Source: a virus
Virus record (IMG/VR): IMGVR_UViG_3300047310_000254
Coordinates: 1-20,564 of that record
Direction: 5' to 3' (one strand)
DNA length: 20,564 nucleotides
This document shows, piece by piece, positions 3,528 to 11,909 of the stretch. A model generated the notes under the pieces. It made no database searches. It saw nothing but the letters and a program-made list of their open reading frames with translations, and was not told where the DNA came from. A program made the translations under genes and the position numbers. Position 1 is the first letter of the stretch. Each line of letters opens with the position of its first letter.

Positions 3528-4526
3528 ATGACGCGCAATATCGGGGCCAAATTCGTCACCCGCATGGAGGCCGACGCCGACTTTCTCGGCAACGGTGCCA
3601 TCGAGACAAATATGTACGAGACCGAAATTTTCGACCTCGTGCGTCGCAGTTCGCCCACTGCTCAGCGATTTGAAGCTCCTCCGGCGACCGGTCATCCGCA
3701 TCGCTACTTCGAGGAAACTTCAATCCAGACTGCAACATTCACCGATCCTCGCAACATCAGCCCGACTCCTTCCAGCCCGACACGTGTCGAGCAGTCGGTT
3801 CTGGTGCGCGCCCTCGTCGATCAGACCAACTTCTCTCTGTTCGACGTCGACGTGACCCGTCAGCAGGGTCAGTTCGCCTATCTTGAAGCCAAGGACATCA
3901 ACGATCTCATCAACTCCATCATCGTCCTTCGCGGCAAGGCACTCTGGAACGGTACGGCGACGAGCAACAACGACTCTGGCTCGACGCAGTACTGTGGACT
4001 TCTCAAGCAGATCACACTCCAGGCGACGATCGACCAGTCCAGCTCGATCATCGACGGTCTGAAGGCGCAGGTCGCGTCCATGGTCGCCGATCCCAACCAC
4101 GTCGTCCGCATCACCAGCATCTACGTCAACGCGGTGCTGGGCGACTACATCGATCGCGAGGCTCGCTCCGGGCAGATCTTCCTCGGAACGACCACGGTGG
4201 AGGGTGGTCTCGTCGTCAAAACTCTCCAGACGCAGGCGGGCCCTCTCCCGCTCATTCCTGATGCGTTCATGCCGTCCGACACGGTTGCGAAGTACGGCTT
4301 CGCAGCTCCGCCGGCGACCTACAAGAACTACTATGCGGCGATCATTGGTGACAAGGACGTGGAGATGCCCTACGTCGGCGGCGCCGATCAGAACCCGAAC
4401 CCCCGTCTGTTCCAGCTCGGGTTGCTCGGCGGTCTGCAGGGTCAGTACGTCGCAATCAAGTTCGACACCTTGCTCGCGAAGGGTCCCTCCTACGCGCACG
4501 CTGTCGTCGCGGTGGTGCGTCCGTAA
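3528..4526 (+). CDS. Major capsid protein
   Basis: A 332-residue protein with the look of an HK97-fold major capsid protein. N-terminal residues 1-60 would form the N-arm; the segment with FLVRRSSPTAQRF-like character and the long middle region TRQQGQFAYLEAKDINDLI followed by a conserved LWNGTAT are typical of phage capsid spine helix and adjoining loop. The C-terminal part (YVGGADQNPNPRLFQLGLL...) carries the final strands of the A and P domains. No separate delta-domain scaffold precedes it, which fits a scaffold supplied by the gene upstream. A ribosome site AAGGAAAG precedes the ATG, and a strong terminator follows, so it can be expressed at high level. Capsid assignment rests on position, length and pattern; the exact capsid family is not certain. 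Confidence 0.85.
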   Translation: MTRNIGAKFVTRMEADADFLGNGAIETNMYETEIFDLVRRSSPTAQRFEAPPATGHPHRYFEETSIQTATFTDPRNISPTPSSPTRVEQSVLVRALVDQTNFSLFDVDVTRQQGQFAYLEAKDINDLINSIIVLRGKALWNGTATSNNDSGSTQYCGLLKQITLQATIDQSSSIIDGLKAQVASMVADPNHVVRITSIYVNAVLGDYIDREARSGQIFLGTTTVEGGLVVKTLQTQAGPLPLIPDAFMPSDTVAKYGFAAPPATYKNYYAAIIGDKDVEMPYVGGADQNPNPRLFQLGLLGGLQGQYVAIKFDTLLAKGPSYAHAVVAVVRP

Positions 4527-4585: not shown

Positions 4586-4831
4586 ATGATGATCGTGTAT
4601 CAGAGAACAGCAGAACCTCAAGCGAGACATCGACTCATCGTCACACCCGGAAAGACTTCCGACTGTTCAGACTTCTGGGAATATGGCAAGCCTCGTATTA
4701 TCACCGTGGAATTCTTCCACGGTAGCACTGAAGTCCCAGACAATCTTGGTCGATGGCTCATCGATCACTCATATGCCCGCGCGACTCGTCAGCGCATCAT
4801 CGTTCCAGAAGGAGTGAGACTACATGGCTGA
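4586..4831 (+). CDS. Small hypothetical head-region protein
   Basis: An 81-residue basic protein of unknown function. Codon choice and protein composition resemble the neighbours, and its stop overlaps the next start by 8 bases, which supports a real gene. It contains VEFFHGSTEVPDNLGRWLID, a pattern (hydrophobic strand, short Gly turn, then 'v.d.LG..li') that I have a vague sense of from other small phage head-cluster proteins. The start is unclear: GTG 4583, ATG 4586 and ATG 4589 are adjacent, with no good ribosome site at normal distance; the nearest one (TAAGGAG 4556-4562) sits in the terminator loop about 23 bases upstream. Translation may depend on transcripts that read through the terminator. 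Confidence 0.6.
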   Translation: MMIVYQRTAEPQARHRLIVTPGKTSDCSDFWEYGKPRIITVEFFHGSTEVPDNLGRWLIDHSYARATRQRIIVPEGVRLHG

Positions 4832-5114
4832 TCCCGTCGTCATCAAACCCAAGGAGACAGTTCTCGAGGCCAACTTCACAGCTCCATTTACTGGATCGGC
4901 TGATGTTGCTGCATCCAACACGGTGAAGGTCACTCCGGGGCGCTCACTCGTTATCAACTGTACGGTCGCCGGCAACGTCAAGGTTGGGTTCGCAGATGGA
5001 TCTACTCTGACGATTGCCGTAGCGATCGGAACGCTGATTCTTCCGTGGGCCGTCGCGCAGGTCTTCGTCGCCGGCACGACAGCGACGGCAACCTACGCGA
5101 ATCTGCTGCTCTGA
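4824..5114 (+). CDS. Small beta protein, spike-base-like (Rcc01079 type)
   Basis: A 96-residue protein, almost all predicted beta strand, with no Cys-rich or catalytic motif. The segment NTVKVTPGRSLVI, then AGNVKVGFADGSTLT, AIGTLILP and AQVFVAGTTAT follows the order seen in the RCAP_Rcc01079 spike base family of the Rhodobacter capsulatus gene transfer agent: a strand after 'T-P-x-R', a G-x-V-x-V strand, a hydrophobic L-P turn and a terminal 'GTTAT' strand. In that agent the protein anchors fibres on the head. Its location right after the capsid fits a head-surface role. The ribosome site AAGGAG lies 9 bases upstream of ATG. A general head decoration protein is the alternative. Confidence 0.65.
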   Translation: MADPVVIKPKETVLEANFTAPFTGSADVAASNTVKVTPGRSLVINCTVAGNVKVGFADGSTLTIAVAIGTLILPWAVAQVFVAGTTATATYANLLL

Positions 5115-6034
5115 TGCCCGGCTCTCAGTACCTCGATTCTGACGAGTACGTCGCGTATGGTCTTCCAACGACTATGACGCAGGCGATCGTCAAAAATGCG
5201 AGTTCAATTATTGACGCCTATCTGGGCCGTCCACAGGGCCTAGCATGGTCGCCAGACGCCGGGGGTACGCCCGCCTATATGGTGGCTCCAACGCCGCGCT
5301 TGACCCTCACCTGTGTCTCAGCGGTGTCACCGGGCGCGGGTGTAGTGGTGGCATACGCAGGAGCAAAGTTGGACAACAACGTCGTCGGTGAGGCGGTCGT
5401 TCTAGATCGTGCGAATATCAGTGCTGTGGAGACTTGTGTGATCACAGCGATTGATCCCGCAGCCAAGACGATTACGTTGCAGAATGTCCAATTCGCACAT
5501 GCTCCGGCATGTACGGTGGAATTCGGTATGACCATCATGGAGGAGCGAGAGCTCCCGAGTGATCGTTCCATCACGCGCGTTGCTCAGCACCCGATTATGA
5601 CGCTTCTCAGCGGTGCTGGACGATACGGCTACGGACGCAGAAGTCAGCAGACCGCTGGCAACTTCCAAGAATTCAATCTTCTTGCGGTGGTCTCCTCCTT
5701 CGGTGGACCCCCACTGTGGATACCTTGGGACGTCAACAACGCGTCGGTCTCCAATCTGACAGGGGAGATCTGGGTTCCAGCGGGTGTTCTTCTCGCATAC
5801 TATACCGATGTTCGCGTCTGGTACATCGCGGGCTTCGCGTACGATGAGATACCTCAGCCTGTGAAGCAGGCGTGCGCCAACATCTGCACTCTTCTGAAGG
5901 AGACAGGTCTCGGAGCCAATATCCGCTCGCGCAACGTGCGCGACGGCACCGTCGTCGGCAAGTTCGAGAACAACATGATCGACTTCAACAGTCGTCAACT
6001 CCTCGACCCATATCTGGCGCGTCGGTTCATCTGA
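5114..6034 (+). CDS. Head-tail connector (adaptor) protein
   Basis: A 306-residue protein starting at the ATG that overlaps the preceding TGA by one base; an in-frame start further upstream at 5045 would overlap the previous gene and is unlikely. The N-terminal helix (YLDSDEYVAYGLP, then AIVKNASSIIDAYLGRP) and the C-terminal part (AYYTDVRVWYIAGFAYDEIP, PVKQACANICTLLKE, LLDPYLARRF) match gp6/gp15-type head-tail adaptors that form a ring under the portal. Between them, residues about 50-200 form an inserted beta-rich region (strands RLTLTCVSAV, VVVAYAGAKL, ETCVITAIDPAAKTITL), so the protein is two to three times longer than the simple adaptors. The role is structural. Assignment comes from end motifs plus position before a gp10-like gene. 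Confidence 0.75.
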   Translation: MPGSQYLDSDEYVAYGLPTTMTQAIVKNASSIIDAYLGRPQGLAWSPDAGGTPAYMVAPTPRLTLTCVSAVSPGAGVVVAYAGAKLDNNVVGEAVVLDRANISAVETCVITAIDPAAKTITLQNVQFAHAPACTVEFGMTIMEERELPSDRSITRVAQHPIMTLLSGAGRYGYGRRSQQTAGNFQEFNLLAVVSSFGGPPLWIPWDVNNASVSNLTGEIWVPAGVLLAYYTDVRVWYIAGFAYDEIPQPVKQACANICTLLKETGLGANIRSRNVRDGTVVGKFENNMIDFNSRQLLDPYLARRFI

Positions 6035-6988: not shown

Positions 6989-7735
6989 ATGGCCTTCGCA
7001 GTCTTCGGGCCGGGCTCGCTCTACATCACTCGTACTGACGTCGTGAGCACACCCATCAACATCGGCTACTGTCAGTCCTTCAGTCTCGATGAGACAGGAG
7101 AGACGAAACAGCTCTACGGTCAAAATCAGTACCCGCTGGCAGCGGCGAGAGGAACAATCAAGGCGACCGGAAAGGCCGTCGCCGCTGAAGTTTCTGGCAT
7201 CGCTCTCAACTCTGTCTTCCACGGGGACTCATTCGCCACAGGAATGATCATCCCGAATTGGGCAACGGCCCATCCTATTCCTGGATCTGGACCGTACACC
7301 ATCACGATCACCCCTCCTGGACCTCTCACATTCGATCAAGATCTTGGTGTCGTGTATGCGACGACTGGTCTTCCGTTCCAGAGAGTGTCATCGCTGACGG
7401 CTGTCGGGCAGTACACGAATACTGGAGGTCTGTACACGTTCTTCAGTGGTGACGCAGCCGCCGCCGTTCTGATCTCCTACACGACGGCTGGAGGTACGTC
7501 CGGTCAGACACTCACGATCACCAACAAGCTGATCGGAACGGCGCCGATCTTCCAGATCGACTATGCTACGACTTTGGAGGGGAACGCATACTATCTGAGG
7601 ATCTTCCAGTGTGTCGCGAACAAGCTGTCGCAGTCGTTCAAGATCACGGACTTCATGCTGCCCGAGATTGACTTCGACATCTTCGCGAATACGTCTGGCA
7701 ACGTCTATACCGCCAGCTATCCAAACGTCAGCTAG
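6989..7735 (+). CDS. Tail tube protein, copy 1
   Basis: A 248-residue major tail protein. It has the typical order for alphaproteobacterial phage tube proteins: MAFAVFGPGSLYITRTD, an ELYGQNQYPLAAARGTIKATGK-like core (here TKQLYGQNQYPLAAARG), an Ala-rich helix, an inserted central beta region, then IGTAPIFQIDYATTLEG and the C-terminal SQSFKITDFMLPEIDF...IFAN strand. Hexameric rings of this protein stack to form the tail tube. AAAGGAGA gives a strong ribosome site 6-8 bases before ATG, as expected for an abundant protein. It is followed 12 bases later by a paralogue about 83% identical. The two differ mostly in the middle and share almost identical N- and C-terminal parts. Confidence 0.85.
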   Translation: MAFAVFGPGSLYITRTDVVSTPINIGYCQSFSLDETGETKQLYGQNQYPLAAARGTIKATGKAVAAEVSGIALNSVFHGDSFATGMIIPNWATAHPIPGSGPYTITITPPGPLTFDQDLGVVYATTGLPFQRVSSLTAVGQYTNTGGLYTFFSGDAAAAVLISYTTAGGTSGQTLTITNKLIGTAPIFQIDYATTLEGNAYYLRIFQCVANKLSQSFKITDFMLPEIDFDIFANTSGNVYTASYPNVS

Positions 7736-7747
7736 GGAGATATTACT

Positions 7748-8497
7748 ATGGCATTCGCAGTCTTCGGGCCTGGATCTCTGTACGTCACGCGTACAGACAT
7801 CGTCAGTACGCCCATCAACATCGGTTATTGCCAGTCATTCAGCTTGGATGAAACTGGTGAGACGAAACAGCTCTATGGACAGAACCAGTATCCTCTGGCG
7901 GCGGCGCGTGGTACGATCAAGGCGACGGGCAAGGCCGTCGCAGCAGAGATCTCTGCCATCGCGCTTAACTCCGTCTTTCACGGGGACACGTTCTCCACTG
8001 GTCAGATCGCACCGAACTGGGCGACCCCTCATACAGTCCCAGCGCCGAGTGGACCGTACACTGTCCTCATCGCACCTCCAGGTGGTCTGACATTCGATCA
8101 GGACCTTGGCGTTATCTACGCGTCGACAGGTCTCCCACTCCAGAGAGTTGCGAGTGGCCCAACGATTGGTCAGTACGTCAATCTCGGAGGTCTGTACACA
8201 TTCGCCGCTGCTGATGCTTCCATCGCCATGCTTATCTCCTACACGACATTAGGAGGTTCCTCAGGTCAGATAGTGACGGTCACCAACAAGCTGATCGGAA
8301 CGGCGCCGATCTTCCAGATCGACTACGCCACAACGCTGGAGGGGAATGCCTACTATCTCCGCATCTACCAGTGCGTGGCGAACAAGCTGTCGCAGTCTTT
8401 CAAGATCACCGACTTCATGCTTCCGGAGATCGACTTCGACATCTTCGCGAATTCCTCCAATCAGGTCTATACAGCGAGTTATCCAAATGTCAGCTAG
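7748..8497 (+). CDS. Tail tube protein, copy 2 (tandem paralogue)
   Basis: A 249-residue protein that aligns over its full length with the preceding gene: by hand count about 42 differences including a one-residue insertion (about 83% identity). Differences cluster in residues 68-185, for example HPIPG versus HTVPAPS and SSLTAVGQY versus ASGPTIGQY; the N-terminal 67 residues and the last 65 are nearly unchanged. It has its own ribosome site (GGGAG, 7 bases from ATG). Both copies keep a full reading frame and all core motifs, so neither looks like a decaying pseudogene. One may build the bulk tube and the other a specialised ring set, or they may mix; this is not decidable from sequence. Its last 11 bases overlap the chaperone gene. 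Confidence 0.85.
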   Translation: MAFAVFGPGSLYVTRTDIVSTPINIGYCQSFSLDETGETKQLYGQNQYPLAAARGTIKATGKAVAAEISAIALNSVFHGDTFSTGQIAPNWATPHTVPAPSGPYTVLIAPPGGLTFDQDLGVIYASTGLPLQRVASGPTIGQYVNLGGLYTFAAADASIAMLISYTTLGGSSGQIVTVTNKLIGTAPIFQIDYATTLEGNAYYLRIYQCVANKLSQSFKITDFMLPEIDFDIFANSSNQVYTASYPNVS

Positions 8498-8846
8498 TAT
8501 CACACTCGCCGGCGTCGTCTACCAACTCCCCGAGAAGCCGCTGCTCGGGGAGGTTCGTGCGGTCAGCATGGCGATGTCTCGCAAGTTGCCTCCGTATGGT
8601 GAGGAACTTGAGGCATACGCTTGGGATCAGGCTGCTGACGTTGTCGTCGTTGCCCTGAAACGTCCACAGCCAGACTGGACGCGTGACAGCTTGTTCTCAC
8701 AAGCTATTATCCCAGATGAACTTTGGGCGGCGCGTCGCATCATCCTCACACACTTCGGTCTACTCAAGGAGCCCAAACCGGGGGAAGAAGTGGCCGGGGT
8801 GGAGCAAGTTGGGAGTGGGTCTACGGAGAACTCTGCACCGGCCTAG
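8487..8846 (+). CDS. Tail assembly chaperone, short form (gpG-like)
   Basis: A 119-residue protein in the lambda gpG position, between tail tube and tape measure. The chosen ATG lies inside the last codons of tube copy 2 (11-base overlap), suggesting coupled translation; it gives MSASITLAGVVYQLPEKP, a sensible small-domain start, while an in-frame codon farther upstream would lie deep inside the tube gene. The body is helical (EVRAVSMAMSRKL, ELEAYAWDQAADVVVVALKR, DELWAARRIILTHFGLL), followed by an acidic linker GEEVAGVEQVGSGSTENSAPA that ends where the frameshifted extension takes over. Such chaperones bind the tape measure and load tube subunits; they are not in the finished virion. Sequence similarity to lambda gpG itself is not visible; the call rests on position, size and the frameshift arrangement. 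Confidence 0.75.
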   Translation: MSASITLAGVVYQLPEKPLLGEVRAVSMAMSRKLPPYGEELEAYAWDQAADVVVVALKRPQPDWTRDSLFSQAIIPDELWAARRIILTHFGLLKEPKPGEEVAGVEQVGSGSTENSAPA

Positions 8847-9070
8847 CCAAGACTCCAGATGAGGTAGGTTCTCTCACCATGGATGACGCCATGGAAATCC
8901 TCAATCACTGGAGAAAACATCCTCCGACACACCGTATCTTGGCATCGGTGCATAATGTCAAACCCCAACTCACTGTTGAGGAACAGTGGGCTCAGGGAGC
9001 GATGGGACCAGCCGATTTCTTGGGTTGGGTGAAGTCTACAAGCGGAAAGAAGGCTGGCCCGAATGGCTGA
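8487..9070 (+). CDS. Tail assembly chaperone, frameshifted long form (gpGT-like)
   Basis: A second frame, -1 relative to the short form, is open from upstream of the overlap to a stop at 9070 and encodes SWEWVYGELCTGLAKTPDEV, then a helical stretch TMDDAMEILNHWRKHPPTHR and a C-terminal EEQWAQGAMGPADFLGW. It has no credible start of its own (only a TTG at 8723 without ribosome site). A -1 slip on the G run 8780-8784 joins the frames as bases 8487-8783 then 8783-9070, giving a protein of about 194 residues. This is the classic GT arrangement, where the T part contacts tube subunits. It ends 8 bases inside the tape measure gene. Confidence 0.7.
8766..8843 (+). promoter_or_regulatory. Programmed -1 frameshift signal
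   Basis: Three elements are in the order known from dnaX-type sites: a perfect internal ribosome-binding sequence AAGGAG (8766-8771) with no start codon at suitable distance, 8 bases to a run of five G (8780-8784) read in the zero frame as CCG GGG GAA, and 7 bases later a stem in which 8792-8797 pairs with 8838-8843 (six G-C pairs; 8800-8801 with 8836-8837 can extend it past a two-base bulge). The P-site GGG can re-pair perfectly after a -1 slip; the A-site GAA to GGA is imperfect, so the heptamer is not ideal. Confidence 0.6.
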
Positions 9071-11909
9071 TGACACAGAAACTATCATCATAACTGGTGA
9101 CGTCAGCAGTTTGAAAGAGCAACTCAATGTTGCTCAGATTGAACTGACATCGTTCAACAGTGCCATCAAAGAAACAACAACTTTGATGTCTCGGATGGGT
9201 TCATCTGGGGCGGCGTCTCTCCAACCATATCTCACAGAATTGAGGCAACGCGCTGCTGACACGACGGCGGAGATAAATCAACTCACCATTGCGATCAAGA
9301 ATTACGGGAATGTCCAGAATAGTGTCGTCACCCAGACACCATCCTCCAGCTTCAATCGTATGGTGTCTGATCTTGCTGATGTCAAGACCAGCTATCTGTC
9401 GGCGAAGGGTAGCGCTGAGGTCTTCTCATCAGCCGCAGCCGCTGGACTCCTCGGAACTGCCGAGGCTACCGGAACTCTCAACCTAGCAACATCAGGAGCG
9501 ATACAGGAGTATATCCGCCTCGGCCACGAGGCTATGACAGGCAACTATTCTAGAATGCCCGGCTCTGCAGTCGTGCTCGCCTCCCGTATGGGGGGCCTGA
9601 CACTGTCGACCCTCGGGACCGTCGCGGCCTACGTCGCACTTGGCGCAGCACTCGTCGCACCAATCGCCACTCTCGGTATTCTCACACTTCGTCAACATGA
9701 GGCGGATGAGGAGGCAAAAAATCTCGCTGAACAATTCGCCCTGACAGGTCGTGGTGCGACCAATACGAAGGATGCTATCGAGGGTGAGATCAGTACACTC
9801 CAGCAGATGACTGGGGTCACGCGCGCTATCGCGTCAGAGACTGTCGCGTGGGATGCAGCCCACGCTGACGTTAATGACAAGATTGCTAATGCTGCGAATC
9901 AACTTCTTCCACAATTCGTCAGCTATGGTAAGAACGCTGTCTCGGTGCTCGGCGGTATCAAGCAATCTCTTGCTGAGATCAACGATTCTCCAATCAAAAA
10001 TGCTGTGTCGGCATTTGATGAGTTGAATACCAAGTTTCTGCGTCTTCCTCAGAGTGAGGCCAATGCCATCAGTCGTATGATTGAACTTGGTCAGCGCACC
10101 GAGGCAGTCACTCGTATTCTTGCTGATCTTGCTGCTCAGGGTGGAGGCAGCATACAGAAGATTGATCAGCAGGTCATTGAAGCAAAGGAAGATGTCCAGA
10201 GAGCGAAGGATCAACTAGAACTTCTTCAGCATACTGCTGCTCTTCCAGGTAATCCAGAATCTATCTACGCAATTCAGGAGGCAGCGCTCCTCGCTCGTCA
10301 TGAGGTGGATACACTCGAGGCCAGTCTTAAGAAACTCCTCGGTGAGCAGTCTGCTAGAAATCCGATTATTCCGATCGACGCCTCGCAAGTCTCTGATCAG
10401 TTGACACGCATTGCACAGGATGTACAGAAGACCAATGCACAGATCCTTCAGGATCAGGTCACGTATCTGAAGCAGGAGGAGCAGGCTCACAATCTCTCCG
10501 CCAGCGCGCGTCACTACATCGAGACCACACTCCAGTCCAAGTTGGTCGATCTGGCGCGAAAGACGAGTGCCGATAACATCGAGACGATGCACGCTACGGA
10601 GAATGCGGCCGGTCTCATCGGCACGGCGCGTCTGAACCGTGAAATCGCAGACGATCGCAAGGCAATTGCTGATAAGAATACGACGGCTGAGGATCGGCTG
10701 CGGCTTGAGCGTGAACTCGGTGATAAGCTGTCTCAACTTCATCAGCTCCAGTTCAATGCTGAGAAGAAGTTGGAGAACGACAAGCACTCGTGGCTTCAGC
10801 AACTCTACGATGAGCAACTTCAGGTAATGAAGACTGCTCTCAAGGAAGAAGCTGATGCTGAGAAGAGTGCCGCGCAGGCTGATCTATCGATTGCACGCTC
10901 CGTTCTTGATCAAAAGAAGGATATCCTCAACCGAGAACTCACCGACTTTCAGATCACCGCTCAAGAGAAGTTTCAGATGGAGAAACAGTACGCCATCGAG
11001 GCTGAAATGGCTGAGGAGAAGGCCATCATGGCCGAGGGTCTCACTGCTCAGCAGACATACGACAAAATTCGGGTGCTGCGCGCCAAGCTGAATACCGATC
11101 TCGCCAAGTTAGACACTCAGATGGAGCAAGAATCTGTCCATACTTGGAGGGACATTCTCGCTCCAATCCAAACAGCTACGACTTCAATATTCTCCAATAT
11201 CGTCACGCGAGCTCAGACCGTCGGTCAACTCATGCGTGGAGTTCTTCAGCAGTTGGTTCTGGACTTCGCGACGGCTCGCATCAAAATTGAGTTTGACTGG
11301 CTGGCGGGTCAGGCCGCGATGGCTCTCGGTGCTCAGAAGTGGGCGTCCAAGTCACTTATCGAGTGGGTTGCTAGTGAGCTAGGTATCCAAACAGCAAAGG
11401 AAGAAACTGCTGCAACGACTGAGTCGACCGATGCCGCGCTGGCAGCGTCAGGTGCGACGACAGCATATCTCACCGCTGCCAGTCAAATCGCGACTGACGC
11501 AGCGGTCGCCGGGGCGGGTGCCTACGCTGCGACTGCTATGATCCCCTATGTGGGTCCAGCACTGGCTCCAGGTGCAGCGGCGACGGCCTACGCCGGAGCA
11601 TTATCGTTTGAGGGTGCGCTGGCTCTCCCAGCCCTCGCTACAGGCACGATGAATGTCCCACAAGATATGCTCGCGTTCATTCATGAGGGCGAGTCTGTCG
11701 TACCAAAAGAATTTGCACAGGGACTTCGTGAGTCAGGTTCTATATTCAACAATCAGCGCGGTGGTGACATCAATCTTCACTACGGTCCTCACATCATGGG
11801 AGATCATCAGAAATCTCTCACAGAACTCTTGGATGATCAGCCCTACGCGCTGCTCGACATGTTGACGAGACTTAATCGTAATGGTGCGCTTCAGCAGGCC
11901 CTCAGATGA
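9063..11909 (+). CDS. Tape measure protein
   Basis: A 948-residue protein whose length sets tail length; it fills the tube and probably helps DNA cross the cell envelope. The N-terminal third has helices and the SRMPGSAVVLASRMGGL region seen in lambda gpH-type proteins. Residues about 174-209 form a hydrophobic stretch long enough for a membrane helix. Residues about 360-700 are a long coiled coil rich in Gln, Glu, Lys and Leu. Residues about 790-885 are Ala/Gly-rich and hydrophobic with MIPYVGPALAPGAA. The C-terminus has AFIHEGESVVPKEFAQ, the typical end motif. The start overlaps the chaperone stop by 8 bases. By the usual rule of about 1.5 angstrom per residue for a helical tape measure, the tail would be roughly 140 nm; this is a rough inference. 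Confidence 0.9.
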   Translation: MADDTETIIITGDVSSLKEQLNVAQIELTSFNSAIKETTTLMSRMGSSGAASLQPYLTELRQRAADTTAEINQLTIAIKNYGNVQNSVVTQTPSSSFNRMVSDLADVKTSYLSAKGSAEVFSSAAAAGLLGTAEATGTLNLATSGAIQEYIRLGHEAMTGNYSRMPGSAVVLASRMGGLTLSTLGTVAAYVALGAALVAPIATLGILTLRQHEADEEAKNLAEQFALTGRGATNTKDAIEGEISTLQQMTGVTRAIASETVAWDAAHADVNDKIANAANQLLPQFVSYGKNAVSVLGGIKQSLAEINDSPIKNAVSAFDELNTKFLRLPQSEANAISRMIELGQRTEAVTRILADLAAQGGGSIQKIDQQVIEAKEDVQRAKDQLELLQHTAALPGNPESIYAIQEAALLARHEVDTLEASLKKLLGEQSARNPIIPIDASQVSDQLTRIAQDVQKTNAQILQDQVTYLKQEEQAHNLSASARHYIETTLQSKLVDLARKTSADNIETMHATENAAGLIGTARLNREIADDRKAIADKNTTAEDRLRLERELGDKLSQLHQLQFNAEKKLENDKHSWLQQLYDEQLQVMKTALKEEADAEKSAAQADLSIARSVLDQKKDILNRELTDFQITAQEKFQMEKQYAIEAEMAEEKAIMAEGLTAQQTYDKIRVLRAKLNTDLAKLDTQMEQESVHTWRDILAPIQTATTSIFSNIVTRAQTVGQLMRGVLQQLVLDFATARIKIEFDWLAGQAAMALGAQKWASKSLIEWVASELGIQTAKEETAATTESTDAALAASGATTAYLTAASQIATDAAVAGAGAYAATAMIPYVGPALAPGAAATAYAGALSFEGALALPALATGTMNVPQDMLAFIHEGESVVPKEFAQGLRESGSIFNNQRGGDINLHYGPHIMGDHQKSLTELLDDQPYALLDMLTRLNRNGALQQALR

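Follow-up and report, generated by a model that had tools for sequence, protein, structure and literature searches.

The tail gene module of the virus record studied here very probably encodes two tail assembly chaperones of the lambda G and G-T type, the longer of which would be produced by −1 programmed ribosomal frameshifting. This reading is drawn from the DNA of the window and of its relatives. The window is the whole IMG/VR virus record IMGVR_UViG_3300047310_000254 (20,564 bases), and its tail module contains a tail-tube-like gene, a 119-codon gene, an open −1 frame, and a tape measure gene. The 119-codon G-like gene (8487–8846, plus strand) runs in the zero frame from ATG to the TAG at 8844–8846. 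The T-like domain (8786–9070, plus strand, stop at 9068–9070) was recognized by a T-domain profile in the −1 frame; it comprises 94 codons after the slip and is proposed to be reached by frameshifting. The pair sits between the tail-tube (major tail) protein gene upstream (7748–8497, plus strand; phrog_8234, E=1.7e-47, and a weak match to the major tail protein family phrog_4971) and the tape measure protein gene downstream (9063–11909, plus strand; phrog_2854, tail length tape measure protein, E=3.5e-16), as in lambda G/G-T. The tail-tube gene is the second of two tandem copies, the first of which (6989–7735) is 83% identical to it in protein. Both copies are intact, and they possibly supply two tube proteins within one tail or reflect a recent duplication.

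The zero-frame codons at the site are CTC AAG GAG CCC AAA CCG GGG GAA GAA. They include the Shine-Dalgarno (SD)-like stimulator AAGGAG (8766–8771, plus strand), an 8-nt gap (8772–8779), and a GGGGG run (8780–8784), which forms the first part of the slip heptamer G_GGG_GAA (8780–8786, plus strand, in the zero frame). The G run is followed by a 7-nt spacer (8785–8791) and by the 5' arm GGCCGG of a putative stimulatory stem (8792–8797, plus strand), whose complementary 3' arm CCGGCC (8838–8843, plus strand) directly abuts the zero-frame stop. All these elements, their spacings, and the position of the 3' arm against the TAG had been described in the initial annotation and were recovered here. Besides G_GGG_GAA, the overlap in the window contains no in-frame heptamer of the slippery type. 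Most ribosomes would stay in the zero frame and make the 119-residue G-like chaperone. We infer that a minority, arriving at G_GGG_GAA with AAGGAG paired to the anti-SD of the 16S rRNA behind and the stem ahead, slip at the heptamer. The glycyl and glutamyl tRNAs would then move back by one base, the former from GGG to GGG with exact pairing and the latter from GAA to GGA, where the middle position would be a G.U pair. The slipped ribosomes would enter the T-like domain and make a 194-residue G-T fusion with the predicted tandem-slip junction …Lys-Pro-Gly-Glu-Arg-Ser-Gly-Arg….

Protein and DNA searches of phage records with the chaperone region gave no match, and the search of IMG/VR with the chaperone protein returned only two further records, both with 100% protein identity. 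Since the chaperone found only these identical records and no annotated phage, relatives were gathered via the tail-tube protein, giving 14 and then 80 viral loci, 35 genome loci, and 7 phage records. The named relatives are mainly proteobacterial, chiefly alphaproteobacterial. A T-like domain profile was built on the first relatives and then iterated, and the domain was present in 114 of 124 loci, which were grouped into 90 divergent clusters by joining at ≥80% nucleotide identity. The initial annotation had noted a −1 overlap of the two chaperone frames. In the window the downstream frame is indeed −1 relative to the gene starting at 8487, and 113 of the 114 loci have their T-like and G-like frames in this relation. 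Errors in sequencing or assembly often break a frame by a single base, and such an artefact, or gene decay, could in principle give the same picture. The probability of this explanation is practically nil, as it is refuted by the two further IMG/VR records carrying the same gene and is opposed by the same frame break in all loci but one.

The exception (L135, Anaerospora hongkongensis genome, 3761–4436) is the sole locus with the T-like frame in +1 relative to the G-like gene, and it could rely on a shift of +1 or −2 or on translating the two frames separately. The T domain was not matched in ten loci, several of which are cut off at the end of a contig or look rearranged. Five of these ten were inspected by hand, together with L012, L116, and L135. 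In two loci (L063 and L065), the tail-tube gene was followed by non-tail ORFs and no G-like or T-like gene was found there; prophage decay or contig rearrangement may account for this. Another locus (L008) has an extra ORF between the tail-tube gene and the G-like gene, at about 4710–5333. This ORF starts with GIYRISNLVNGHHYVG and, by eye from the translation of its start, looks like a GIY-YIG homing endonuclease.

The slip heptamer is strongly conserved in the family. An in-frame G_GGG_GAA was observed within the overlap in 67 of the 90 clusters and G_GGG_GAG in 6, together 73. As a background, the long ORFs of these loci contained 7 in-frame G_GGG_GAR among 98,725 codons (7e-5 per codon), and only 4% of background Gly-Glu pairs were coded GGG GAA. 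The remaining clusters carried A_AAC_CCT (5), A_AAA_AAG or A_AAA_AAA (5), G_GGA_AAA (2), C_CCA_AAC/AAA (2), and G_GGG_GGA (1). The last two clusters were that of L012, which had no such heptamer, and that of L135. Relatives that lack the G run and keep both frames had been named beforehand as a case against the cassette. Such relatives do exist, but nearly all of them have another recognized slip heptamer of the A_AAC_CCT, A_AAA_AAG, G_GGA_AAA, or C_CCA_AAC type, and they thus support frameshifting instead of refuting it.

In the 73 G_GGG_GAR clusters, the codon before the heptamer is always NNG, yet it encodes 10 different amino acids. The A-site codon is GAA in 67 of the 73 sites (92%), compared with 48% of background Glu codons; because the 73 sites were preselected as GAR, this argument concerns the use of GAA over GAG, and how rarely the overlap holds any other G_GGG_Gxx heptamer. 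The constancy of NNG over 10 amino acids and the GAA bias point to selection at the nucleotide level. The Gly-Glu of the slip site were the only invariant residues among 63 aligned G-like proteins of this otherwise ∼20%-identical family. Their invariance is partly built in, as these proteins were chosen for carrying the site, and the informative part of the alignment is that no other residue is invariant.

In the canonical X_XXY_YYZ heptamer, both tRNAs re-pair at least their first two bases in the Watson-Crick manner. The site described here fails on this point because the GAA to GGA step needs a middle G.U pair, and G_GGG_GAA belongs instead to the GGGGGAA class. It had been noted before that the heptamer is not of the lambda type and that only the P-site codon re-pairs perfectly. 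Both statements hold, but the motif is not unusual, since GGGGGAA was reported as the 'fivetwo' slip motif for about a thousand actinobacteriophage tail assembly chaperone sites by the PRFect authors, who already proposed G:U re-pairing of the second tRNA (PMC10885494). The perfect re-pairing of the P-site codon alone is also what would be expected if the glycyl tRNA slipped by itself on G_GGG while the A site was empty. GGA would then be read as Gly and the junction would be Pro-Gly-Gly-Arg, as the initial annotation had predicted. A slip of only the peptidyl-tRNA is experimentally supported for a dnaX variant (PMC5009743). Such a slip would have no obvious need for the GAA bias, unless slow decoding of GAA is the trigger, and we regard it as possible but rather unlikely here. 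That the A-site codon is almost exclusively GAA suggests, without proving it, that both tRNAs slip and that the junction is Pro-Gly-Glu-Arg, while Pro-Gly-Gly-Arg would hold only for the P-site tRNA slipping alone.

The internal SD sequence is the second conserved element. When the pairing of the mRNA with the 3' end of the 16S rRNA was scanned by distance across the family, it was strongest at a gap of 8 nt, which is the spacing of the window itself. The mean pairing energy at this gap was −5.05 kcal/mol, compared with about −1 to −2.5 kcal/mol beyond a gap of 12 nt. The family mean of the best anti-SD energy was −6.18 kcal/mol, compared with −3.90 ± 0.36 kcal/mol after codon permutation, and none of 100 permutations reached the observed value. 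The AAGGAG of the window pairs with −7.7 kcal/mol, ranks 18th of 73, and is equalled in 2.25% of its own codon permutations. The GG core is placed mainly in two codon phases, so the SD is not simply an amino-acid motif, and an exact SD match of at least 4 nt is absent in 29% of the clusters, which makes the SD helpful but not obligatory.

The AAGGAG could also act as a ribosome binding site. Reinitiation or coupling would then yield the T domain from a start codon of its own, without any frameshift. Some GenBank records, those of Acinetobacter phages 5W and vB_AbaSI_5, do have the T-like ORF annotated separately. Against such an independent start, the T frame between the slip and the T domain has no ATG in any of the 73 clusters and none of ATG, GTG, or TTG in 68 of them, and the conserved heptamer would be left unexplained. 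Thus, an own start codon is highly improbable. In the two Acinetobacter phage records (L021, vB_AbaSI_5, and L023, 5W; 3775–4349), the G-like ORF and the T-like ORF each stand as a hypothetical protein of their own, although GGGGGAA directly precedes the zero-frame TAG; the G-T fusion appears to have been missed in their annotation.

The third element is the downstream stem. Across the family, the sequence 4–84 nt downstream folds better than its shuffles (mean z of −1.2 to −1.5), and the upstream and farther regions show little or no excess folding (z of −0.1 to −0.4). The probability of the 5' arm of the stem is highest 7–13 nt after the heptamer, and at 7–10 nt it is 0.81–0.88, compared with 0.53–0.56 in shuffled sequences. 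The stem of the window starts at nt 6 after the heptamer, which is nearly the family position. Taken by itself, it is no stronger than shuffled sequence (z = 0.02 for 8787–8860), and its z value ranges from −1.9 to +1.0 with the choice of boundaries. The stem of the window alone therefore gives no evidence, and it is the family signal that makes it credible. As far as the sequence signals tell, the SD and the stem are both real stimulators throughout the family. The check proposed in the initial annotation, conservation of the AAGGAG, the G run, and the stem in relatives, was thus positive for all three at the family level.

The homopolymer also brings RNA polymerase slippage into consideration, in which length-altered mRNAs would give a transcriptional fusion, an alternative route that is used by some bacterial genes (PMC5009743). 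A run of five G is short compared with the roughly nine A or T for which slippage is reported (PMC5009743). Furthermore, polymerase slippage explains neither the GAA, the SD at a fixed gap, and the stem nor the A_AAC_CCT-type heptamers of other clusters, and we consider it even less probable than an own start codon of the T domain.

The identity of the two products was approached by sequence and fold searches. The G-like proteins of 23 relatives match phrog_7947 and the T-like proteins of 24 relatives match phrog_8018, both families without an assigned function. The two proteins of the window had no convincing Pfam or PHROG match, and the PDB sequence search named neither of them. Among relatives, the best matches to named families were weak, one to Pfam TAC_12 (0.0085) and one to phrog_1442 (0.0088). 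The AlphaFold models were confident (pLDDT 91), and fold searches with them gave nothing below E=0.001; N15 GT was found with a TM score of 0.58 but at E=3.4. No sequence homology to lambda G/G-T was detected. The gene order and the frameshift match those of lambda G/G-T, and we infer the chaperone role from this position and architecture. Lambda also shares the −1 frameshift near the end of G and a T domain that occurs only as a fusion. In lambda, G binds the tape measure protein and T binds the tail-tube protein. By analogy, the G-T fusion of the window may link the tape measure protein to the tail-tube protein, and the ratio of G to G-T may be important for tail assembly. The slip site is different, as lambda uses G_GGA_AAG and the family described here uses G_GGG_GAA with a conserved SD and stem. 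The G-T shift of lambda is low-level, and certain tailed phages seemingly have no stimulatory signals (PMC5009743).

Stimulation of −1 frameshifting by an SD sequence is known from dnaX and IS elements (PMC5009743). E. coli dnaX has an internal SD, a slip heptamer, and a stem-loop in the same order as the window, but it slips on A_AAA_AAG and ends early to give a shorter product, whereas the shift described here lengthens the protein. The closest arrangement in the tail gene context is gp14/14A of Corynebacterium phage phi16, for which an internal SD, GGGGGAA, and a downstream pseudoknot were described (PMC5506516). A check of the phi16 sequence (KY250482) placed GGGGGAA in frame close to the end of ORF14. 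This site shares with the window the internal SD, the heptamer, the downstream structure, and the position between the tail-tube and tape measure genes. It differs in having a predicted pseudoknot and the SD GAGG, where the window has a simple stem and AAGGAG. The fivetwo sites of actinobacteriophages have the same heptamer, gene context, and shift direction. Those sites come from SEA-PHAGES actinobacteriophages, whereas the named relatives described here are mainly proteobacterial, and their chaperones fall in PHROG families that have no assigned function.

Within the open-access papers that the literature search covered, both the heptamer and the cassette of three parts were thus already published for actinobacteriophages and phi16, and what is added here is their conservation across dozens of distant relatives. 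We propose, at even chances, that GGGGGAA is a distinct slip class that needs re-pairing of the glutamyl tRNA (UUC anticodon) via a middle G.U pair, that it is fixed at the RNA level over a mainly proteobacterial phage clade in which it interchanges with A_AAC_CCT and A_AAA_AAG, and that phrog_7947 and phrog_8018 constitute a formerly unassigned G/G-T family. The GAA bias makes the slip of the A-site tRNA through the middle G.U pair a testable question. Beyond the actinobacteriophages, the conservation gives independent evolutionary support for a working frameshift cassette made up of GGGGGAA, an SD placed 8 nt before it, and a stem ∼7 nt after it. Two PHROG families that had no assigned function thereby acquire a likely one, and some deposited phage records are seen to carry the two halves of the chaperone as distinct genes.
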